Positions 13,633-29,082 of a stretch of DNA of 30,224 bases are shown here, piece after piece; within the stretch, counting starts at the first letter, position 1; each line of letters opens with the position of its first letter. The translations under genes and the position numbers were made by a program. The notes beneath the pieces are model-generated. The model was not told the DNA's origin and made no database searches. It worked only from the letters and a program-made list of their open reading frames with translations. Source of the stretch: a virus; the IMG/VR virus record IMGVR_UViG_3300017708_002878, positions 1 to 30,224 of that record. One strand, 5' to 3'.

Positions 13633-16600
13633 ATGGGAGCTATTTTATACACTGAAGGAGGATTATTACAATATCTTGATGGTAGACCATATATAGGAAG
13701 TTATCACATAATGCCAGATGGTACTCCAATGGGAGGGGCTGTTCATACAGACAATGAAGAAATCCTACGATATGATCCTAATAGGGCTAGAGTATCAGTA
13801 GTAAATCCTGATAATTATTCATCCCAGATATTTGAGGCGGATGATCGAAGTCTTATTAGTAACTCAGAAATAGAATCATTTTTTGATCCCCTTGTAGATA
13901 GAATAGAGTTTTTTATTTATGATATATCTAGAAATTTAGTCTTATATGATGATGATTTTAGGGAATATAGAATAGAAAATAATATAAGTGCTGACCCTAA
14001 TGAAATAGATGAAATCATTCTTCAACCTCAAGTTGATGCAGTTAGAAATGGATTTAATAGGGGATCTATATTTACAGTTTATAATTTTATTACTTCTGAA
14101 ATAAGTGACGTTTTTATATCCGAAATATCACCTGATAGAACAGAAATTAGATTACAATCTAATGTTTTAACTAGTGAAGATATAAGAGAAGAAGTTTCTT
14201 CATTAAAAAGTAAAATAGATGGTCTAAATTACTTTGATGAACTTTACCTCAATTTTGGAAATAATGATTATTTTATAGCTGTAAACATACAGTTAGATAA
14301 TACTACGTCTCCTACATCATTCTTAGTAAAATTATATACCCCTCTACGTGATGACATTACTACTAAAACAGAATTAGAATTAGTAAGTAAGGTATCCGAA
14401 ACACAAGCATTTGAAGTTGATTTCCCCGATATCACAATACCAATAGATAATACTATTAGTATTAAGGGACCTAATACAAATTTAAAAATTAAAGATAAGA
14501 TAAATAATTCTTCGGAATATAAAAATTTAACTTCTTTAACAACTTCTTCCTTTACTGCTTCCCTAGACCAAACTAGTTATTTACTTAATCAAACCGGAAT
14601 TCCACTCCACCCTAGTTATTCTATTGTCGATTATAATGATTTTGTTCACTTTTCTTCTGCTAAAGAAAGATTAGAAAATTTTTACTACAAAGTAGGCCAA
14701 ATAGAATCTAATCAAAATTCTATAAATAGTTTAAGGATTATTACTGGGTCATCTTCGGGTTCTTCTACTACTCTTACTTCTTTTAAAATATTTGAAGATA
14801 GAATAACAGAAACTATTAGAAACTTTGATGGGTTTGAATATTTCTTATACTATAATAGTAGTTCAGATGCCTATCCTAAATTAAATAATAATGCTCCTTA
14901 TAGATTACAATCTACAGGTAGTGCTGAGGTATTAACTTGGTTAGGTAGTGATATAGTAGGTAGTGCTAATTATGGAGGTGCTTTATTAAATGCCTCTAGG
15001 TTTGATGAAGATAACCCCAGCAATCTAAAATACACTATTCCCGAATTTATAAGAGAAAACTCCAGCAATGATAATTATTTAAAATTTGTAAATTTAGCAG
15101 GACAACATTTTGATGAATTATGGTTATACATTAAATCTATAACAGATAAACTTAAAGCATCCAATAATTTAGAAACTGGGGTACCCCCTGAACTAGTTGA
15201 AGAAACACTTAAATCTTTTGGATATGATATTTATGGTAATAATTTTGATAACAATGACATTTTTACCAGCTTAATAGGTATAAATGAATCTGGGTCATAT
15301 TTTACTGAAACTAATCAGGAATTAATTACCACTGCTATATCAGCAAGTAATACTCCTATTCCTATAAATGATGTAAGTAAAGAAATTTACAAAAGATTAT
15401 ATCATAATCTAGTTTACTTAGCTAAGAAAAAAGGTACAGTCTCGGGCTTAAGAAGTTTAATTAATATTTGGGGTTTACCAAATACTGTACTAAGAATAAA
15501 TGAATTTGGAGGTAAAGATAAAGTAAATGCTAATGATTGGGACTTATATAGAAGAATATATAATAAAGAACTAGTATCTACAGGAAGCTCTAACCACTTC
15601 ACTTCAGTTTTTGCAAATAAAGGAACACCCGACACTGGACTTAATTCAGATTGGGGAGTAGATCCTAATGTTCCAAGAACTGTTGAATTTAGATTTAAAT
15701 CAAGAATTAATCCTAACACTCTACCTAACTGTACAGGTTTAACAAATACACCAATAAGGGAAGAATTATTTATACTAAAAGATAGTGGTGTTGTAGGCTC
15801 TACAGCCTCCTCATCCTTAGCAATTACACTAGAGTATTTCGGATCGGGATCAGCTACAGGCTCATTTTCAGGTAGTACCTTTGACCCTAATAATCAATAT
15901 GCGGATCTAGCATTATATGTAAGTGGCTCAACACAATACTATTCATCATCTATTAATCTACCATTCTACAATCAGGATTGGTGGAACGTAATGTTACAAT
16001 ATGATAGTGGTTCTAATAAATTTAACCTTAATACTGGTGATAAAATTTACAATGGTAATGATGGAACTCAATTAGGTTTTACTGGAAGTACATCTATAAC
16101 AGTTCCTGCATATGCTGATACATTAGGATATCGTAATGCTAATCTTGCTAACTCAGGAACCGGAGGTGCTAATAGATTCTTTGGAACCGGAAAAAGCGGA
16201 TCCCTAAAATTCTCAGGATCATTTCAAGAATACAGATACTGGACAAACCTTTTATCGGAAGAAGCATTTCATAATCATATTATGGATCCCTTATCGATTG
16301 AGACAGGATATTTAACAGGATCCCTCTCACCGGTAGAAACTCTTGCATTTAGAACTAGGGAAGGAGAAGATTGGTCAATAACGGGTTCTCTTACAAATCC
16401 TGAATATCAATCAATCCATCCGAAAGTAACAGGACTCTTTACCCCAACCTCATCTTTTACTTCAAGAGGCACTGATACTAACACATATAATGTAAATGGG
16501 TTATATCAAGCAAATAGAGAAACCCAATTCTTAAACCAACCTAATTTAGGAATTAAAAATAGGGTAGATGATAAAGTACGTGTTGTTGATAATGTAGTTT

Positions 16601-19600
16601 ATGAAAGCACTTTATCATCACTTAGATCAATTCAACAGAATTATGAAGTTTCCCAATCATTTACGGAAGATACTAATTTACTCGAAGTAGCATTCTCACC
16701 CCAGGATGAGATAAATGATGACATAATCCACGAATTAGGGTTTAATAATAATATTACTGAACAATTAGCTGACCCACGAAACTTATCTTCATCTCTTGAA
16801 TATTATGATGGATTAAGAGATATATCTCTAAAATATTTTGAAAAATATGTTAAAGATAATGCAAATGATTACTATAGGTTAATCAAATATATAGATAATT
16901 CTTTATTTAAAGCTATTAAAAACTATGTACCTGCCAGAACTTCAGTTTCTACAGGTATAGTAGTCAAACAACATTTATTAGAAAGAAATAGAGTAAGACC
17001 TCCCCAAGTTAACATAAATACTGCTATAGCTAAAACCCCTGAAACTGGTTCGGCTGTAAATGGAATATCACCAACAGGTAATAATAGTCAATTATCTTTT
17101 CAGGATATATCACTAGAGGGATCTATTAAATCTCAACCAAGAGGATTTATAACGGGTTCTCCCGTTCAAGTGTTTACGGGGGGAACTGGGGGTTCATTTG
17201 AGAAATTTAATTCTATTCATTTTCACCCCTATGGTACTTCTGGTAGTGGTCCTACTGAAAAATTTGGTTTTGATATTTCTCAATCCTTTATAGAAACCGT
17301 TTCCACTTTATCAGGTAGTGTAAATACCTTAATAAGTAACCAAGATGAATTTTATAATGGAGAGTTTAATGGTTCCACTTTAATAGTAACTACTCAATCC
17401 TTAAATCCTGGATGTAAAAAATTCTTAAATGTTAGCATTCAAGGGGGAGAATTATTACATGAGTATGATAGATTTATTTACAATCCTATTACTACTTCAT
17501 TAGCTCCCTTTGAAAATCCTAGAACATCTCCTAGAAGTGGTGAAATATTTTTCTTTACTAATATTAATCCTTCTCCCACTAGGTTTGAAAAAATTAAAAT
17601 ATCCAATACTACTAGAACAGGAGTAGATTTATCTAGTATTTTACCCTCCTTAGATAATATTACTTTTGATTTTATAGGAAATAATAAAAATGTAAATATA
17701 TCATTTGCAGGGGGAGGAAATAACTTTGCTGAATTCGATGTTATATCCCCTACATTTACATATGATTCGGATAATTTTACTTCTAACTTTATTAATTATT
17801 CGGCATCTGCTACTAAGACTTCATCATTAGTTGATATAAGAGTTAGTGAACCCGTTTCTGCTAGTTTTACACATTTTAACTATGTGGTTCCCATTTCGAA
17901 TTTTGATACTGAAACAGACCCAGAAAACTTATTTGATTTATCTACGGGTGAATACGCTTGTCCCCTTACTAATAATAGATTTTTATCAATTACAGGATCA
18001 GCTTCTGGATCTTATACTTTTGATAATACTGAGGGTATAAGCCCTGTTCAGTATTTTGTAGATATACAATTAATTAATAAAACTAGTAATTATGTGTTTT
18101 TACAAAACGGGATTAGCGTAGGACTCAATCCTGGTAGTTCACTTACCACACAATTTGATTTAGATTTAAGAACAAAAGTAGCAAATACTACTGCCCTAGT
18201 TACAGGGGATAGATTAGGATTGCAGGCTAACATTCGTTTTAATGATCAAAAGACATTAATAAAGGGCTCGGGATCCTTAAATATTTCTGCATCTTCTTTT
18301 GCTGTTAATCATGTAAATACAGTAAGTGACCTAAATCCTACTTCTTCACTACTTAGTATAGAACCATCTTTTTTAATAGATGGAAATGAAGATTTTCAAA
18401 GAGCCTTTGATTGTCAACCTTTATTCAACAACTCAATAGAAAATAGGAACTCTACAACATATCAAGATGTAGACTACTCAACAGGTTTATTAACTCCTAC
18501 TAATGTAGTTCCTATAATTAATAATGATGCTGTTCCTGCACAAACCCCGGATTCTAATTATACACAAAAATCTAGAATTTTACTTAGATATGAAGGTTCA
18601 AAATTACAAGCCTTAGATATTAATGCTTATAATGCACCTGGTGCTTTACTTAAGGATGGTACAAGATGGGGTGGTGACATATCATTTGGGAAAACTCCAG
18701 TTATACAAAGAGTAAAACCATTTTTCAGTTATTTCCAATTATTAGTACCTGCTTCACCTGAATTAGAAAATGCTACACAGGTTAAACTAGCATATTTAAT
18801 AGATTCTCAGGGTAATGCTTTTAAACCTCTTTTGAATTCACCTACTTTTTTTAATGTTGAAGGAACGTTTGAAAGTGGTGATAAGGTAGATATAGCATTA
18901 GAGGATACTCTACAGACAGATGATCCATCTTTAGTAAATGCTGCAGTGGGAATTAACTTAGATAACTTTAACACCTCGGCTAATGTCCTTTATGGGGCTA
19001 GAAGAGTAGATCCTATTTTAACTACACAAAAAGTATCCATAAATGATGTATCTAATGCTAGTGATGCTTTTGTATCTACTTTAACCTTCCAAGGAATAGG
19101 AGATGAAGAAATTAATTATGCATTTTATGCTAATGGTGCACAATTACCAGGATTATCTTTAGATACTAGTTTAGAACATGTAATAGGCGGTACAGGTGTA
19201 AATTATACCCCATCTGTTACAGATTATGCTGGTGGATTTAATAATACTACTGGAATTTATACTTTTCCTTCTAACCCCATCCCCAGTAACAGGATAAAAT
19301 TTAGTGGAGGAATATCTGGTTTTGCTAGGACTAATATTTTAGGTTTACAACAAGGTAATGGTTATTCATTTTATGAAAATACCCCTGTAGCAAGACTACA
19401 ATTAATAAAAGAAAGATCATCAGTTCAAACGGTATTAGCGGAAGAAACAATTGTATATAGACGTAATTTTGATCCATCATTCCCAAATGGTATAGAACCT
19501 TTACAAAGTATAACATTGGAATCTTTAAATACTGAGGTAGTTTCTGCCGATCAAATATTTTTAAAATTAGTTTTAGAAAATCCTATTCTCTTTGATTTTG

Positions 19601-20127
19601 AATTAACCGGAGAGTTACTTAGAGGAAGACCTACATTATTTCCTACTATTACAATTCAACCTGAGTTTTTTCAGACAGGTAGTAATTTCACTAATACAGT
19701 AACTGCTTCTATCTCAATGTCACAATTTTTTGATATAAGCCAACAGTTACCTTTACAAGAAAGTACATTTAAACCTATTAATGAAAACTTTACATTTAGA
19801 AAAGGAGATGAACTAAGATTTGAAGGAACTGAAGCCTTAGCATTTAAAATATATGATGTAACATTATCGGAAAATGGTAGTACTTCAGGAAGTTATATTC
19901 TTAATGTGCAACCTGAAGTTCCTCCTAGAGTGGATTTAAATCAATTTTTATTAAGAAGATATAATCCTGATGGCACATCGGTATTAATAGATTTAGTACC
20001 ACCTTCTTCTTCATTTGCTACTACTAAGGGGGTTATGAAAAATACTTTAATATCGGAAGAATTAGGGGAAAATATAGATCTTATAATTTCGGATCTAGTT
20101 AAAGAAGGAGTTTTAAATAATAAATAG
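13633..20127 (+). CDS. Giant baseplate/tail protein with LamG-like domain (2164 residues)
   Basis: The longest gene in the window. Residues about 480-535 (FVNLAGQHFDELWLYIK, VPPELVEETLKSFGYDIYGN) and 590-635 (YHNLVYLAKKKGTVSGLRSL, INIWGLPNTVLRINEFGG) resemble the gpI-like tail-protein segment of large marine-phage baseplate proteins. Residues about 676-895 form a LamG/concanavalin-like domain (VEFRFKSRI, WWNVMLQYDSGSNKFNL, FSGSFQEYRYWTNLLSEEAF). The C-terminal 1200 residues are beta-rich, full of Ser, Asn and Thr, and probably form several adhesin-like domains. Its place after gp25 and gp6 matches that of gp7 in T4, but the length is double and homology to gp7 is unproven. It is probably an extended baseplate arm that contacts the host. 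Confidence 0.65.
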   Translation: MGAILYTEGGLLQYLDGRPYIGSYHIMPDGTPMGGAVHTDNEEILRYDPNRARVSVVNPDNYSSQIFEADDRSLISNSEIESFFDPLVDRIEFFIYDISRNLVLYDDDFREYRIENNISADPNEIDEIILQPQVDAVRNGFNRGSIFTVYNFITSEISDVFISEISPDRTEIRLQSNVLTSEDIREEVSSLKSKIDGLNYFDELYLNFGNNDYFIAVNIQLDNTTSPTSFLVKLYTPLRDDITTKTELELVSKVSETQAFEVDFPDITIPIDNTISIKGPNTNLKIKDKINNSSEYKNLTSLTTSSFTASLDQTSYLLNQTGIPLHPSYSIVDYNDFVHFSSAKERLENFYYKVGQIESNQNSINSLRIITGSSSGSSTTLTSFKIFEDRITETIRNFDGFEYFLYYNSSSDAYPKLNNNAPYRLQSTGSAEVLTWLGSDIVGSANYGGALLNASRFDEDNPSNLKYTIPEFIRENSSNDNYLKFVNLAGQHFDELWLYIKSITDKLKASNNLETGVPPELVEETLKSFGYDIYGNNFDNNDIFTSLIGINESGSYFTETNQELITTAISASNTPIPINDVSKEIYKRLYHNLVYLAKKKGTVSGLRSLINIWGLPNTVLRINEFGGKDKVNANDWDLYRRIYNKELVSTGSSNHFTSVFANKGTPDTGLNSDWGVDPNVPRTVEFRFKSRINPNTLPNCTGLTNTPIREELFILKDSGVVGSTASSSLAITLEYFGSGSATGSFSGSTFDPNNQYADLALYVSGSTQYYSSSINLPFYNQDWWNVMLQYDSGSNKFNLNTGDKIYNGNDGTQLGFTGSTSITVPAYADTLGYRNANLANSGTGGANRFFGTGKSGSLKFSGSFQEYRYWTNLLSEEAFHNHIMDPLSIETGYLTGSLSPVETLAFRTREGEDWSITGSLTNPEYQSIHPKVTGLFTPTSSFTSRGTDTNTYNVNGLYQANRETQFLNQPNLGIKNRVDDKVRVVDNVVYESTLSSLRSIQQNYEVSQSFTEDTNLLEVAFSPQDEINDDIIHELGFNNNITEQLADPRNLSSSLEYYDGLRDISLKYFEKYVKDNANDYYRLIKYIDNSLFKAIKNYVPARTSVSTGIVVKQHLLERNRVRPPQVNINTAIAKTPETGSAVNGISPTGNNSQLSFQDISLEGSIKSQPRGFITGSPVQVFTGGTGGSFEKFNSIHFHPYGTSGSGPTEKFGFDISQSFIETVSTLSGSVNTLISNQDEFYNGEFNGSTLIVTTQSLNPGCKKFLNVSIQGGELLHEYDRFIYNPITTSLAPFENPRTSPRSGEIFFFTNINPSPTRFEKIKISNTTRTGVDLSSILPSLDNITFDFIGNNKNVNISFAGGGNNFAEFDVISPTFTYDSDNFTSNFINYSASATKTSSLVDIRVSEPVSASFTHFNYVVPISNFDTETDPENLFDLSTGEYACPLTNNRFLSITGSASGSYTFDNTEGISPVQYFVDIQLINKTSNYVFLQNGISVGLNPGSSLTTQFDLDLRTKVANTTALVTGDRLGLQANIRFNDQKTLIKGSGSLNISASSFAVNHVNTVSDLNPTSSLLSIEPSFLIDGNEDFQRAFDCQPLFNNSIENRNSTTYQDVDYSTGLLTPTNVVPIINNDAVPAQTPDSNYTQKSRILLRYEGSKLQALDINAYNAPGALLKDGTRWGGDISFGKTPVIQRVKPFFSYFQLLVPASPELENATQVKLAYLIDSQGNAFKPLLNSPTFFNVEGTFESGDKVDIALEDTLQTDDPSLVNAAVGINLDNFNTSANVLYGARRVDPILTTQKVSINDVSNASDAFVSTLTFQGIGDEEINYAFYANGAQLPGLSLDTSLEHVIGGTGVNYTPSVTDYAGGFNNTTGIYTFPSNPIPSNRIKFSGGISGFARTNILGLQQGNGYSFYENTPVARLQLIKERSSVQTVLAEETIVYRRNFDPSFPNGIEPLQSITLESLNTEVVSADQIFLKLVLENPILFDFELTGELLRGRPTLFPTITIQPEFFQTGSNFTNTVTASISMSQFFDISQQLPLQESTFKPINENFTFRKGDELRFEGTEALAFKIYDVTLSENGSTSGSYILNVQPEVPPRVDLNQFLLRRYNPDGTSVLIDLVPPSSSFATTKGVMKNTLISEELGENIDLIISDLVKEGVLNNK

Positions 20128-21869: not shown

Positions 21870-22832
21870 ATGAGTTCCTTCAAACAATTCAATGCCAAGG
21901 ATGTTGTAGTATCACCCTTTAAAGTTAATAAAAGTTTTACTTTTAGGGGAACCTCTGAATTTACAAAATCTGATGTAGGAATAGATAGATTTATAGGTAA
22001 AAATTCTACACCTACTAATAACATACTGCAAGAAGTAACAACAGGTCAAATATCATTAATCCCAGAAAGATTATTATATAAATCAGTTGAACAACTTTAT
22101 TATTCTAATTTTTTATTAGATGCCTCGGGTAGTAATGCGTCAACGGCTTCTTTTAATCCTGATTTAACTATAACAGGACCTGGAGCTACTACTAATTATT
22201 ATAATTATTTATCATCTGATCTGGTACCCAGAAGAGAATTTCCTACACAATCTGATGCTAGAATAGGAGTAATATCTATACCTTCTAAAGTATTTGGGGA
22301 GTATATTAAACCTGGTACTTTTAGATATAAAGAGAATTCTACTACAATGACAGATGATGGGGAGGGGAATTTATTTGACCAAGATGGTAATCAATTAGGT
22401 AATATTATATATGAACATGGGTTAGCTATTGTTACAGTAGAAAGTGAGGATGCATATGATTCACTATATGGCACAGCGGTTTATGGAACAGATTTATATG
22501 GTGAAGCACCAGGATTTGATGCTTTTATGACGGGATCTAATGTTACGTGTTCTTTTGAAAGTACCTTAACGTTAAATGAATCACAATACGCTGCTAGAAT
22601 AACAGAAAATGAATACCAATTTTCCCTTAATCCCACTATAATAAAAGGCAATGATGTAAATTCTGATACTTATTATGATTTTGCCACTGGTTCTTATTTC
22701 ACCCCTTATATTACTACTGTAGGGATGTATAATAATACTTATGATTTATTAGCAGTTGCTAAACTTGCTAAACCCCTCCCTGTATCTCAATTTACAGATA
22801 CAACAATAATGGTTAACTTAGATATGTTTTAA
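21870..22832 (+). CDS. Virion structural protein, paralogue 2
   Basis: A 320-residue partner of the preceding gene, with the same terminal blocks and a different centre (YYSNFLLDASGSNAS, LVPRREFPTQSDARIGVISI, IKPGTFRYKENSTTMTDDGE, and a Tyr/Gly-rich YDSLYGTAVYGTDLYG). An AAGGTG sequence six bases upstream of the ATG is one of the few Shine-Dalgarno-like sites in the window. No catalytic motif. The conserved ends with a variable middle suggest shared docking surfaces and different exposed domains, which is inference. Confidence 0.65.
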   Translation: MSSFKQFNAKDVVVSPFKVNKSFTFRGTSEFTKSDVGIDRFIGKNSTPTNNILQEVTTGQISLIPERLLYKSVEQLYYSNFLLDASGSNASTASFNPDLTITGPGATTNYYNYLSSDLVPRREFPTQSDARIGVISIPSKVFGEYIKPGTFRYKENSTTMTDDGEGNLFDQDGNQLGNIIYEHGLAIVTVESEDAYDSLYGTAVYGTDLYGEAPGFDAFMTGSNVTCSFESTLTLNESQYAARITENEYQFSLNPTIIKGNDVNSDTYYDFATGSYFTPYITTVGMYNNTYDLLAVAKLAKPLPVSQFTDTTIMVNLDMF

Positions 22833-23254
22833 TGAATTGGACTTATGAAGGGAATGAAATAGTAGATATTTCACAATTTCCCGAAAATACATTTGGTTTT
22901 ATTTATGAGGTAACTCATACACCTACAGGTAAAAAGTATATTGGTAAAAAACAATTATTTTTTAATAAAAAACTTCCCCCTCTTAAGGGGTACAAACGCT
23001 GGAGGAAAGTAGTAAAAGAAGGTAATTGGAAAGGTTATTATGGTTCTCATGATTATATAAAGGGACTACTTAAGGAAAATAAACAAGAGGAATTTACGCG
23101 AGAAATAATCCAAATTTGCTATTCTAAAAAAGAACTTACATACAGTGAAACAAAATATCAAATGATGTTTGAAGTCCTGGAAAATCCTTCGTATATTAAC
23201 GCCAACATTTTAGGTAAATTTTTTAGATCTGATCTAGAGAATTATAAAGATTAA
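22832..23254 (+). CDS. GIY-YIG-like nuclease
   Basis: A 140-residue protein. The GIY-YIG core is visible: GFIYEVTH at residues 22-29, TGKKYIGKKQL at 32-42, then a basic helix with YKRWRKVVKEGNW, WKGYYGSHDYI at 67-77, and a candidate catalytic Glu106 in YSETKYQMMFEVL. These enzymes cut DNA with one metal ion. Short stand-alone versions occur near late genes in many T4-like phages, and some are homing endonucleases; this one has no extra DNA-binding module, so a housekeeping role in recombination or packaging is as likely as homing. It is in the same unit as the primase, starting one base inside the previous stop codon. Confidence 0.75.
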   Translation: MNWTYEGNEIVDISQFPENTFGFIYEVTHTPTGKKYIGKKQLFFNKKLPPLKGYKRWRKVVKEGNWKGYYGSHDYIKGLLKENKQEEFTREIIQICYSKKELTYSETKYQMMFEVLENPSYINANILGKFFRSDLENYKD

Positions 23255-24963: not shown

Positions 24964-25764
24964 ATGATATCATTGATACAACTATTGAAAGAACAAGCTG
25001 ATAAACCTAAAGCTGTTATTTTAGCAGGTGCCCCTGGAGCTGGAAAAGGATCTATTTTAAAAGATCTTAATTTAGGGGGGCTTAAAATACTCAATGTAGA
25101 TGATATTTTTATTAAAAATCTTAAACAAGCTAATGTTAGCTTAGATTTAAAGAATGCTACACCCGAAGATAGAGTTGAACAAGCCAAACAAATGGCTGCA
25201 TCCAACAAGGAATTTAAGGGTGAATTGCAAGGCGTAATAGATGGTAAACAATCATTTGTGTTAGATGGCACCGCTGCCTCATATAATAAAACTGCTGAGT
25301 TAAAACAACAGTTAGAAGAAGCAGGGTATGAAATAATGATGCTTTATGTTTATACTGATTTAGAACGTTCTCTAAAACAAAATGAAAAACGATTCGAAAA
25401 GTCAGGTGGTGAAGATAGAAGTTTAGCACCTGCTATTGTAATGCGTACTTGGAAAAGCGTAACAGATAATATAAAACCCTATTTTGATTTATTCACACCT
25501 AATTTTATAGCTGTAGCTAATACATTAAAGGGTGATAAACTTGAAGATATAGAGAAAATTATTAAAAAATATCTAAAACCATATACACCTAAAAATACTA
25601 AGCCTAAAACACCAGCACAGCAAAAAAGATCTGAAGAACAAAAAGCTAAATTAAATGCTGAAATCCAGGATATGTTAGGTGAAGAATTTCTATATGATAT
25701 TTTATCATACACAATATCTAAGGAAGAGGCACAAATGAGATTAAAACAATTTTTAAATGGCTAA
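24964..25764 (+). CDS. P-loop kinase, zeta-toxin-like
   Basis: A 266-residue protein. The Walker A motif GAPGAGKGS is at residues 22-30, followed by a strand ending NVDDIF (44-49), the place where zeta-type and similar kinases bind substrate. A conserved FVLDGTAASYNKT strand-loop and an IMMLYVYTDLERSLKQN segment follow, resembling the Walker-B strand and lid helix. Residues 1-14 (MISLIQLLKEQADK) form a short helix like the N-terminal targeting helices of T4-type internal proteins. The last 50 residues, after a Lys/Pro-rich linker (TPKNTKPKTPAQQKR), form a small helical domain. Zeta toxins phosphorylate UDP-GlcNAc; other relatives act on nucleotides or polynucleotides, and the substrate here is unknown. 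It overlaps the fusion gene by eight bases, so the two are tightly coupled. Confidence 0.7.
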   Translation: MISLIQLLKEQADKPKAVILAGAPGAGKGSILKDLNLGGLKILNVDDIFIKNLKQANVSLDLKNATPEDRVEQAKQMAASNKEFKGELQGVIDGKQSFVLDGTAASYNKTAELKQQLEEAGYEIMMLYVYTDLERSLKQNEKRFEKSGGEDRSLAPAIVMRTWKSVTDNIKPYFDLFTPNFIAVANTLKGDKLEDIEKIIKKYLKPYTPKNTKPKTPAQQKRSEEQKAKLNAEIQDMLGEEFLYDILSYTISKEEAQMRLKQFLNG

Positions 25765-28126
25765 AATAGGGCTATATGGAGGTGGGTTTAAACCACCAAC
25801 TAAGGGACATTTTGAAGTAGTAAAACAAGCTCTCGAAAATAATCCTGATATTGATTCACTTATAGTTATAGTAGGTCAAAAGGAAAGGGGTGGTATAGAT
25901 CAATCTGATTCTTTAGTCATATGGGATATGTATTTAAAGTACTTACCTTTAAAAGTTGAAATACTACCTGTTTCTACTCCTATCCGCACTGTTTATAACC
26001 TTGCAAAGGATAATCCCCAAAATGAATATAAATGGTTTTTAGGTAAAAGGCAGGGTAAAGAAGATGATGAGGCAGACATAGCATTAAGGACTAAACATCT
26101 TACTACTAAAAAGGATAATTACCCTAATCTTACTCCAATCACTATTGAAACTGCAGATAAAGGGATTAGTGGTACTAAGGCTAGAGAATATATAAGAAAT
26201 AATGATAAAACCGGTTTTTTTTCTTTATTACCTAATAACCTATCCCTTGAGGAAAAAGAACAAATTTATACTATGGTATCTAAAAAAATAAATGAGGGGG
26301 GTCATAAGAAAAAAGATCCAAAAACCGGAACGGGTAAAAAACCTGAGGGTTCTAAAAGACGTTTATACACAGATGAAGATCCTAAGGATACAGTAAAAAT
26401 TAAATTTAGAACTAAGGAAGATATAGTAGATACTTTAAATAAAAAATCATTTAAAGCTAAATCTCATGCCCGTCAATCTCAAATAATTAATTTAATTCAT
26501 CAAAGGGTAAGAGCAGCTTATCAAAATTCTAAAGATCCAGATACTAAAAGCAGATTAAAAAGAGCTTTAGATTATATTACTAATAGAAAAGAAAAATCCA
26601 AGGAAAAAACTAAACGTTTAAAACAACAAGACGAAAGTTTAAAGGGATTTGCTAAGAGTAATGTAGGTACAAGATACAGAGCTATAGAAAAAAGAGGTAA
26701 TAAATATTATTATAGACAGGATGACCCACTGGGTGCTGGCATTAAACAAGAATTCGGTCCCTTTAATACTAAGGCTCAAGCTATTAAAAAAATGGAGGAA
26801 TTCCCTCCTGCTAGCAGTTATAGAGATATTACAGATAATATAGATCCTAAATCACAAGAAAAGCATAAAGGTAAATCCTCTCCTTACGGATCAGCATATG
26901 AACCCGTAGATGAAGGAGACACTTATGAAAAAATGGCTGCTAAAGGTAAAAAGGCAGGTAATTTAAAACAGGGTACTGTTAGAAAAAGACTAGGAATAAA
27001 AAAAGGGGAAAAAGTTCCGTTATCTTTAATTAAAAAAGAAATATCACGTTTGAAAAAAATGGATAAAGATCCTAAAAAGAAAGGAGCTCAACTAGGAGAC
27101 AAAAACCAAAAATATTATAAAGCATTACAGTTAGCTAAGACTTTAAAAACTACTACTAACATTAATGAAAATGCTACTTACTCTGATAGTATAGATTATA
27201 GACAACAAATCCTAAATCTAACTAAACATATGTTAGAAAAAGGGGAAAATATTACTCCTTTACCTAATGTTATTTTTAAACATGGTGATCAGGAAAATGC
27301 CCAAGAATTTTTAGGTAAAACAGCATATTATGACCCTAAGGCAATGACTATTGTATTATATACTGAAGGTAGACATCCAAAAGATATTGTTAGGTCATTC
27401 TCCCATGAAATGATTCACCATCAACAAAATTTAGAGGGTAAATTAAAAGGTATTAATACTACTAATACTTTAGAAAATGATTATCTCGAAAATATAGAAA
27501 AGGAAGCGTATTTAGAAGGCAATATTAATTTTAGGAATTACACAGATAGCCAATTACACGAAAAGAAAAAAATAAAAGATCCTTTTGGGATATCTGCTTT
27601 TGCCTATGAATTAGCTCGTGGTTTAGAAGAGCAAGAAGAAAAAATAGAAACTAAATATACTATTTATTCCGATATGGATGGTGTATTAACTGACTTCGAT
27701 AGTAGATTTAAAGAATTTTCTAAGGGTATTGCACCTAAAGATTATGAAAATAAATTTGGGTTGAAAAAGTTTTGGAATTTAGTTGATAATATTGGAGGGT
27801 TAGATTTTTGGGCTAACATGGAATGGATGTCCGATGGTAAAGAATATTGGAGTTATATTCAAAAATATAATCCTATTATTTTAACCGCACCATCTATGAA
27901 CCCCGTTTCCAGATTAGGAAAAAGACAATGGAGAGATGGTAATTTACCTGGAGTAAAAATGAAAATGGCATCTTCCAAAAATAAACCCAATTATTCCAAG
28001 AGAAATGCCATTTTAATAGATGATAGACAGGATACTATTGATGCATGGAGTGCAATGGGTGGTATTGGGATTCACCACACTTCATCAGCTAGCACAATTA
28101 AAAAATTAAAAGAACTTGGTTTATGA
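25757..28126 (+). CDS. Fusion protein: nucleotidyltransferase, unknown modules, HExxH zincin, HAD 5'-nucleotidase
   Basis: A 789-residue mosaic. Residues 1-175: cytidylyltransferase/NMNAT-like domain with GGGFKPPTKGH (8-18, the HxGH-type site with Thr for the first His) and ISGTKAREYI (137-146, the ISSTxxR-type site). Residues 200-345: two Lys-rich modules (LYTDEDPKDTVKIKF, SHARQSQIINLIHQRVRAAY; GTRYRAIEKRGNKYYYRQ). Residues 385-465: module KGKKAGNLKQGTVRKRLGIK. Residues 475-600: zinc-peptidase-like domain with H550-E551-x-x-H554 and candidate third ligand among Glu581, 583 and 587. Residues 633-789: HAD domain like 5'(3')-deoxyribonucleotidases with DMDGVLTDF (Asp639, Asp641), Thr710, Lys741/743 and LIDDRQDT (Asp755, Asp756). 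I see no frameshift. Substrates are unknown. Confidence 0.75.
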   Translation: MAKIGLYGGGFKPPTKGHFEVVKQALENNPDIDSLIVIVGQKERGGIDQSDSLVIWDMYLKYLPLKVEILPVSTPIRTVYNLAKDNPQNEYKWFLGKRQGKEDDEADIALRTKHLTTKKDNYPNLTPITIETADKGISGTKAREYIRNNDKTGFFSLLPNNLSLEEKEQIYTMVSKKINEGGHKKKDPKTGTGKKPEGSKRRLYTDEDPKDTVKIKFRTKEDIVDTLNKKSFKAKSHARQSQIINLIHQRVRAAYQNSKDPDTKSRLKRALDYITNRKEKSKEKTKRLKQQDESLKGFAKSNVGTRYRAIEKRGNKYYYRQDDPLGAGIKQEFGPFNTKAQAIKKMEEFPPASSYRDITDNIDPKSQEKHKGKSSPYGSAYEPVDEGDTYEKMAAKGKKAGNLKQGTVRKRLGIKKGEKVPLSLIKKEISRLKKMDKDPKKKGAQLGDKNQKYYKALQLAKTLKTTTNINENATYSDSIDYRQQILNLTKHMLEKGENITPLPNVIFKHGDQENAQEFLGKTAYYDPKAMTIVLYTEGRHPKDIVRSFSHEMIHHQQNLEGKLKGINTTNTLENDYLENIEKEAYLEGNINFRNYTDSQLHEKKKIKDPFGISAFAYELARGLEEQEEKIETKYTIYSDMDGVLTDFDSRFKEFSKGIAPKDYENKFGLKKFWNLVDNIGGLDFWANMEWMSDGKEYWSYIQKYNPIILTAPSMNPVSRLGKRQWRDGNLPGVKMKMASSKNKPNYSKRNAILIDDRQDTIDAWSAMGGIGIHHTSSASTIKKLKELGL

Positions 28127-28698
28127 GAGATAATGTTTTAAAAAAAGAATTTAATAAAAAAGATGTTCAAAGGATAAGAAATCTGGTACAGGGGAAAAGT
28201 GGAGATAAAATTACCCAAAGTGTTGGTTATAATAAGGGATACATAAAAAGAAAAGAGGGTGATATATGGGAAGAAAAAGGTCAAACTTGGACTATAAAAG
28301 AGGGAATTAGACAAAATATAACGAAATTAGATAAGGCTAAAAAAGCTTTTAAAACCCCCCTATTTTGCCCTGAATGTAACACATTAATGAAAAAAAGATT
28401 TGATTCCCAATATTATAAGATCCATAAAACTTGTTTTGATTGTGTTATTGAAAAAGAACAACTTCTTAAATTAGAAGGTAAATGGGAAGAATATAAAAAG
28501 GGTATTCATAATACTGATATAGACGGTATGATAACGGATTATACCTCATTTATGGAAGCAGCTCTAAAAGAAACTAATAACTCATTTATAACTGAGGCCG
28601 GTGATGTAGAAAAATGGGATGGGGGTATAAACAAAGAACGAGCAGAAGAAGCTTTAAATAAAGGAATTGAATATTTAGAATCTAAAAAAATAAAATAA
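28123..28698 (+). CDS. Conserved phage zinc-ribbon protein
   Basis: A 191-residue protein. Residues 40-80 (EGDIWEEKGQTWTIKEGIRQ and ITKLDKAKKAFKTPLF) lead into a zinc ribbon with Cys82, Cys85, Cys104 and Cys107 (CPEC and CFDC), then CVIEKEQLLKLEGKWEEY. I recognise the order W-E-x-x-G-x-x-W-T-I...C-P-x-C...C-x-x-C-V-I-E as a conserved T4-like phage family without a known role. The C-terminal 50 residues (ITEAGDVEKWDGGINKERAE) are an acidic helical extension. It overlaps the fusion gene by four bases. A protein-protein or nucleic-acid contact through the ribbon is likely; function is not assignable. Confidence 0.65.
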   Translation: MRDNVLKKEFNKKDVQRIRNLVQGKSGDKITQSVGYNKGYIKRKEGDIWEEKGQTWTIKEGIRQNITKLDKAKKAFKTPLFCPECNTLMKKRFDSQYYKIHKTCFDCVIEKEQLLKLEGKWEEYKKGIHNTDIDGMITDYTSFMEAALKETNNSFITEAGDVEKWDGGINKERAEEALNKGIEYLESKKIK

Positions 28699-28743: not shown

Positions 28744-29082
28744 ATGACCAAGGAAGAACTAAAGGAAATAATTAAAACCTCTATTATGAATGAGATGCAT
28801 TGTTCTAAAGAGGTAAGAGAGCAGGAAGAAGAAATTGAAACCGAAGAAAAGGAAGAAATTGAAGTAGTTGATGATGAAGGTATACAATTGTCTCCTGAAG
28901 AGCAAGAAGTTCAAAATGCTTTAGAAAAAGCATTAGATGCTGCTAAAAAAATAAATAATCCTAAACTAGTAACTCAGATAGGTAATACTATTACATACTT
29001 TACAAGGTCAGAAATTATAAAAGAGGAACAGGAAGAAGAACATATAAAATCTCGGTTTTTAAGAACCCTTAGAATGCAATAA
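28744..29082 (+). CDS. Acidic helical protein with LKEIIK helix
   Basis: A 112-residue protein. The N-terminal helix ELKEIIKTSIMNEM is of the recurrent type seen at 8925, 29084 and 30067. An extremely Glu-rich stretch follows (EEEIETEEKEEIEVVDDE), then a module LEKALDAAKKINNPKLVTQI and GNTITYFTR at residues about 60-87, which I recall as a recurring module in proteins of marine T4-like phages. The C terminus is helical. No enzymatic motif. It may be a scaffold-associated or internal head protein; this is inference from the N-terminal helix and context. Confidence 0.6.
   Translation: MTKEELKEIIKTSIMNEMHCSKEVREQEEEIETEEKEEIEVVDDEGIQLSPEEQEVQNALEKALDAAKKINNPKLVTQIGNTITYFTRSEIIKEEQEEEHIKSRFLRTLRMQ

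Follow-up and report, generated by a model that had tools for sequence, protein, structure and literature searches.

Three enzyme domains in one phage protein: a candidate head-packaged polyprotein with predicted prohead-protease sites at its joints

Why would a phage encode a nucleotidyltransferase, a metallopeptidase and a nucleotidase as one polypeptide? The question is raised by an ORF at 25757..28126 of the window, i.e., the whole 30,224-nt stretch of viral DNA analysed here (+ strand, as are the domains, modules and sites given below). The ORF is a single uninterrupted, ATG-started frame of 789 aa plus stop with an in-frame TAA immediately 5' of the ATG at 25757, and it is supported by full-length homologues and an AlphaFold model. 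A first interpretation made from the letters alone (the sequence-only reading) had reported three enzyme signatures in this frame. All the motifs that it quoted (GGGFKPPTKGH, SGTKAR, HEMIH, DMDGV, and LIDDR) were found, and frame, folds and conserved active sites bear the report out. The full-length AlphaFold model predicts order at about residues 1-175, 214-296, 306-357, 420-465, 474-602, and 633-789, with disorder between these stretches, including 177-213 and 355-406. Besides the enzymes the model contains a helical Lys-rich module with a net charge of +20 (residues 181-304; 26297..26668), a small beta module, GTRYRAIEKRGNKYYY... (residues 305-360; 26669..26836), and a second Lys-rich module, KRLGIKKGEKVP...KALQLAKTL, with a net charge of about +17 (26915..27160). 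The charge of the two Lys-rich modules suggests that they contact DNA. PADLOC returned no match for the 789-aa protein.

Searches with the single protein against Pfam and PHROG gave weak matches for the nucleotidyltransferase and the zincin, and family alignments of 57-60 sequences per domain were required. The first domain (residues 1-176, from GGGFKPPTKGH to SGTKAR; 25757..26284) is, judged from motifs and predicted fold, a HIGH-superfamily nucleotidyltransferase of the NadD/PPAT fold; its substrate may be of the NMNAT or of the PPAT type, and its product may serve NAD, CoA or another pathway. Pfam CTP_transf_like matches 49 of 60 relatives, the profile matches the NMNAT structure 1f9a at 1.4e-6, Foldseek retrieves NadD/PPAT at 2.7e-7, and both GxFKPP..H and the R of SxTxxR are invariant in the alignment; NCBIfam placed the domain at superfamily level only, with no equivalog above cut-off. 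The third domain (residues 632-789, from DMDGV to LIDDR; 27650..28123) is by the same kind of evidence an NT5C-type HAD 5'(3')-deoxyribonucleotidase. It matches PHROG 2643 deoxyribonucleotidase at 2.5e-23 as well as the profile of the mitochondrial deoxyribonucleotidase, its model agrees, and DxDG, the motif K and DD are invariant.

Between them lies a domain (residues 472 to about 602; 27170..27559) with HEMIH at 27404-27418, which the model presents as a small zincin. It is modelled with a pLDDT of 88 in the order helix, three strands, HExxH helix, helix, so that the HExxH, the downstream acidic ligand and the core of three strands and three helices are all present, and the H/E/H and downstream E are invariant in 57 sequences. 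The top Foldseek matches, IrrE, selecase and SPRTN, are all zincins, with weak E-values, and a PDB profile search with the domain gave no match. Domain-by-domain comparison of profiles and structures, one of the checks proposed by the sequence-only reading, recovered the nucleotidyltransferase and HAD folds and, with weak E-values, the zincin fold. That reading was staked on the zincin and nucleotidyltransferase folds and on conserved active sites; both folds are predicted and the residues are conserved in homologues. Pfam matches among the 57 zincins are weak, i.e., M91 in 33, DUF6782 in 30, PipA in 11, and MPTase-PolyVal in six (best 0.013). The weak resemblance to the effector families M91 and PipA suggests that the zincin acts on a host protein.

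The architecture is not confined to this record. Two scans yielded at least 572 relatives of the nucleotidase and at least 488 of the zincin, and the best 80 of each were analysed. The three domains are found again across these related IMG/VR loci, about 160 in number, where they share a single ORF or are divided between a nucleotidyltransferase-zincin ORF and a nucleotidase ORF; about 120 loci carry all three, and full-length relatives reach 85-92% identity, which answers the call for a wider search for the architecture. The sequence-only reading had also stated that such enzymes are normally separate. This does not hold for the nucleotidyltransferase and the zincin, which are nearly always encoded in one ORF, and it does hold for the nucleotidase, which comes and goes, being either fused or encoded in an adjacent, often overlapping ORF. 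Dereplication leaves 89 loci, of which 47 have the fused and 42 the separate arrangement; their tree requires at least seven fusion or fission changes, at least four of which are forced by well-supported branches. ORF sizes range from about 290 to more than 1300 aa, owing to the varied modules (Lys-rich helical, zinc-ribbon-like, and "APYGSGY") that are inserted between the enzymes.

Synteny extends to the closest annotated phage, the isolate Flavobacterium phage immuto, in which the nucleotidase is split off. Its gene order is primase, exonuclease, one ORF, the nucleotidyltransferase-zincin gene gp182, the nucleotidase gene gp183, and a 191-aa gene, so that a nucleotidyltransferase-zincin protein directly followed by an NT5C nucleotidase stands between corresponding flanking genes in both phages. 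Unlike the window, immuto encodes the nucleotidase separately and furnishes it with a leader of its own, and gp182 has an extra N-terminal stretch which by eye carries a signature like that of Pol-beta nucleotidyltransferases; in the N-terminus of gp182 and in gp181 (L017 6294-7100 and 5384-6292) the stretches GSVKAGSKADFGDLDI and GSVGKKDYSGDIDLAL are suggestive of this family, on which Pfam is silent. A stretch like the second Lys-rich module of the window protein is also seen, by eye, in immuto gp190. As gp183 starts only 1 nt after gp182, one could suppose that the fused frame arose when adjacent genes merged by chance in a single lineage, or through an assembly artefact, and has no functional meaning. 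We consider this highly improbable, since an identical architecture with conserved active sites is found in dozens of independent metagenome contigs and the homologues contradict it.

What, then, happens to the fused protein? In T4 the prohead protease gp21 cleaves after L/I-x-E, and internal proteins bear a short capsid-targeting leader (PMC9026906), which in IPII and IPIII reads MKTYQEFIAE/A (a slash marks the cleavage position, observed or predicted). Sites of this kind are predicted at the joints of the 789-aa protein from motif and model: INE/GGH in the disordered segment 177-213 (residues 178-180; 26288..26296), VDE/GDT, which closes the SSPYGSAY linker module within the disordered segment 355-406 (residues 384-386; 26906..26914), INE/NATY at the conserved joint before the zincin, where the motif recurs across the family (residues 469-471; 27161..27169), LHE/KKK (residues 600-602; 27554..27562), and LEE/QEE (residues 623-625; 27623..27631), which follows an internal helix, FGISAFAYELARGLEE, resembling a capsid-targeting leader. 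In the model, these [LIV]xE sites, ending at 180, 386, 471, 602, and 625, are located within or next to segments of low confidence; against packaging and cleavage, two further L/I-x-E sites (166 and 786) fall in helices.

The joints are also marked across the family. [LIV]-N-E/NA[ST]Y dominates directly before the zincin whichever module precedes it, and [LIVMF]xE[NH] is found there in 94 of 139 distinct sequences compared with 13 in shuffles; here and for the leaders described below, shuffles overstate the significance, as homologous sequences are not independent. The other 45 joints, about a third, have no motif in the tested stretch. Of 36 copies of the "APYGSGY" linker module 35 end in [LIV]xE. 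The enzyme cores show the reverse. Observed over expected L/I-x-E is 0.66, 0.54, and 0.61 in the nucleotidyltransferase, zincin and HAD cores, respectively, with bootstrap intervals below 1, as against an enrichment of 1.28 in the linkers; [LI]xD is not depleted in the same cores, and 22 early immuto enzymes give 1.17 for L/I-x-E, i.e., no depletion. Because the sequences are related, the strength of this depletion is that of three independent folds and not of hundreds of counts.

Many ORFs of the family begin with what looks like a T4-type leader (MNQLTKFLVDGILNE/, MSLVNELIKGLLPE/, and similar). Nucleotidyltransferase leaders of at least 8 aa contain [LIVMF]xE in 59 of 59 cases (40 in shuffles), and the leaders of stand-alone nucleotidases, which begin MYKLTDLYKQIKE/E and similar, in 56 of 57 (36 in shuffles). 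Immuto has leader-like N-termini in 16 of 23 head-block genes where 6.5 are expected, an enrichment that is absent from the early genes (20 of 81 against an expected 21.7) and the tail genes (4 of 28 against an expected 5). The window protein has no N-terminal capsid-targeting leader, as it starts MAKIGLYGGGF directly after a stop. It is therefore not classed as a classical T4 internal protein, and its targeting would need an internal helix; the helix FGISAFAYELARGLEE before the nucleotidase may replace the missing leader. Of 40 records, 19 encode an S77 prohead protease, among them 12 of the 13 IMG/VR contigs that reach at least 60 kb; immuto encodes one as well, and there terminase, portal, S77 protease and gp23 follow about 10-15 kb further on. 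The 30-kb window contains neither S77 protease nor capsid genes and ends before that region. Relatives of gp23 share ILENQAKQ[LI]VxE/ at the end of the propeptide, and by analogy with T4 the conserved [LI]VxE, read by eye from a MAFFT alignment block in which the relatives' E is not exactly aligned to T4 E65, is probably the capsid maturation site in these phages. A stretch near the N-terminus of immuto gp187, RMQKLAGIITE/, is similar to RWQKLAGIIK, with which the scaffold-like gp203 ends (L021 2631-3095 and 16582-17823, respectively); targeting leaders may mimic the end of the scaffold.

Taken together we favour, with a probability of roughly 70%, the view that the 789-aa protein is a late-expressed, head-packaged cargo polyprotein which is cut at its joints by the S77 protease. 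The sequence-only reading had thought of a virion-delivered polyprotein, and gp21-type joint sites, leaders resembling capsid-targeting sequences, the late head-gene neighbourhood and homologues reported in cyanophage virions speak for this from sequence. Its other suggestion, self-processing by the zincin, is unsupported as the main route. It is true that the zincin sits centrally, is fused to the nucleotidyltransferase in nearly every locus and has invariant catalytic residues, and autoprocessing has been proposed for MPTase-containing polyvalent proteins such as phage P1 DdrB (Iyer et al., 2017; PMC5512222). A polyvalent protein that its own zincin processes, before packaging or after injection, nevertheless appears unlikely. 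The joints fit gp21 specificity, and [LIV]xE recurs where no zincin is present, i.e., in the leaders of HTVC008M and other stand-alone nucleotidases, in cyanophage NMNATs, and in gp23 propeptides, a pattern that speaks for the S77 prohead protease. Avoidance of L/I-x-E in all three folds likewise fits a prohead protease, and the zincin has its weak Pfam similarity to effector-type zincins (M91 and PipA). Less probable still is a stable multifunctional enzyme which stays unpackaged in the cytoplasm and, in the late phase of infection, works on the nucleotide or NAD metabolism of the host. The two nucleotide-handling domains are kept together in gene order, and the immuto annotation labels the two proteins NadR and NT5C, as would suit such an enzyme; it is at odds with linkers that are highly variable and disordered, with repeated fission and fusion, with the restriction of targeting-like leaders to head-block genes, and with the late head-gene neighbourhood.

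If the protein is packaged and cleaved as we favour, N-terminal or internal amphipathic helices would bring the polyprotein into the prohead scaffold, and the S77 protease would cut after each joint Glu, releasing free nucleotidyltransferase, zincin and nucleotidase as well as the Lys-rich modules that could bind DNA. Together with the genome the freed enzymes would then enter the next host, in which the nucleotidyltransferase might support NAD or CoA metabolism, the nucleotidase act on nucleoside monophosphates and the zincin cut some host protein. It is tempting to generalize, at even odds in our estimate, that the prohead protease also serves to process polyproteins across a large group of uncultured T4-like phages from the sea, that cargo is made of interchangeable modules bounded by [LIV]xE and targeting helices, that the injected set can be read from sequence, and that cores are selected to avoid the cut site. 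Were this true, a code of targeting helix plus [LIV]xE with core L/I-x-E avoidance would list the proteins carried by T4-like phages from metagenomes alone, unannotated late genes would become early-acting effectors that can be tested (enzymes of NAD/CoA and nucleotide metabolism, proteases of the effector type, and zeta-type kinases), and the prohead protease would gain a role as polyprotein processor.

A packaged and processed enzyme polyprotein would, on our best reading, be a variation on T4 internal proteins and on polyvalent proteins. With the T4 internal head proteins (IPI-III and Alt) the family has in common that many members start with a leader-like stretch ending in [LI]xE, that the phages also encode an S77 protease and a gp23 capsid, and that the genes lie in the late head block. 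In T4, however, a single protein carries a cleaved leader, whereas here several enzymes have sites at internal joints; in Alt one site lies close to each terminus, and the window copy lacks the N-terminal leader. With polyvalent proteins (Iyer et al., 2017; PMC5512222) the 789-aa protein has in common that several enzyme domains, a zincin-like metallopeptidase among them, are joined in a single phage polypeptide, and that carriage in the virion is proposed; it differs in joints that look like prohead-protease sites, and the set of HIGH nucleotidyltransferase, zincin and NT5C was not found in the consulted passages of that paper. The nucleotidyltransferase has distant homologues in the cyanophage "cytidylyltransferase"/NMNAT proteins (S-SCSM1 ORF91 and S-CREM2 gp154), which share the HIGH domain and in neither of which a zincin or nucleotidase was seen. 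These NMNAT-like proteins were reported in virions by mass spectrometry, with carry-over in CsCl preparations considered possible by the authors (PMC9602691, PMC10665884). Their N-termini, MKSFLQFLKE/A and MKNFSSFLTE/A, are T4-leader-like.

Besides baseplate genes of the T4 type, the 30-kb fragment encodes a late sigma factor, a primase and an exonuclease; it comes from a marine T4-like myovirus. The host probably belongs to the Flavobacteriia, since relatives are also found on contigs in flavobacterial MAGs and the nearest annotated phage is immuto; the Baltic Flavobacterium phage paper (PMC7077304) mentions neither immuto nor virion proteomics. Directly upstream of the 789-aa ORF, and overlapping it by 8 nt, is a gene for a zeta-toxin-type P-loop kinase (24964..25764, +; Pfam Zeta_toxin 4.7e-17) with the capsid-targeting-like N-terminus MISLIQLLKE/. 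A frameshift fusion of the two was considered and rejected, as the sequence offers no convincing slippery site and the ATG is preceded by a stop; the overlap is likelier to reflect ordinary translational coupling. Downstream lies a 191-aa gene (28123..28698, +) that has a counterpart of the same place and length and of recognisably similar sequence in immuto (gp184). The label "NAD synthetase", carried by PHROG 447 and by a similarly placed immuto gene, is apparently a mislabel and is wrong for 22832-23254, which encodes a SegE-type GIY-YIG protein (Pfam 3.2e-28), so that no NAD-pathway argument is drawn from this gene. Between the baseplate-type genes and the primase, a 2164-aa ORF (13633-20127) without Pfam or significant PHROG match is probably a tail or adhesin protein. 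An acidic 112-aa protein encoded at 28744-29082 has an N-terminus, MTKEELKEIIKTSIMNE/, that is also capsid-targeting-like.
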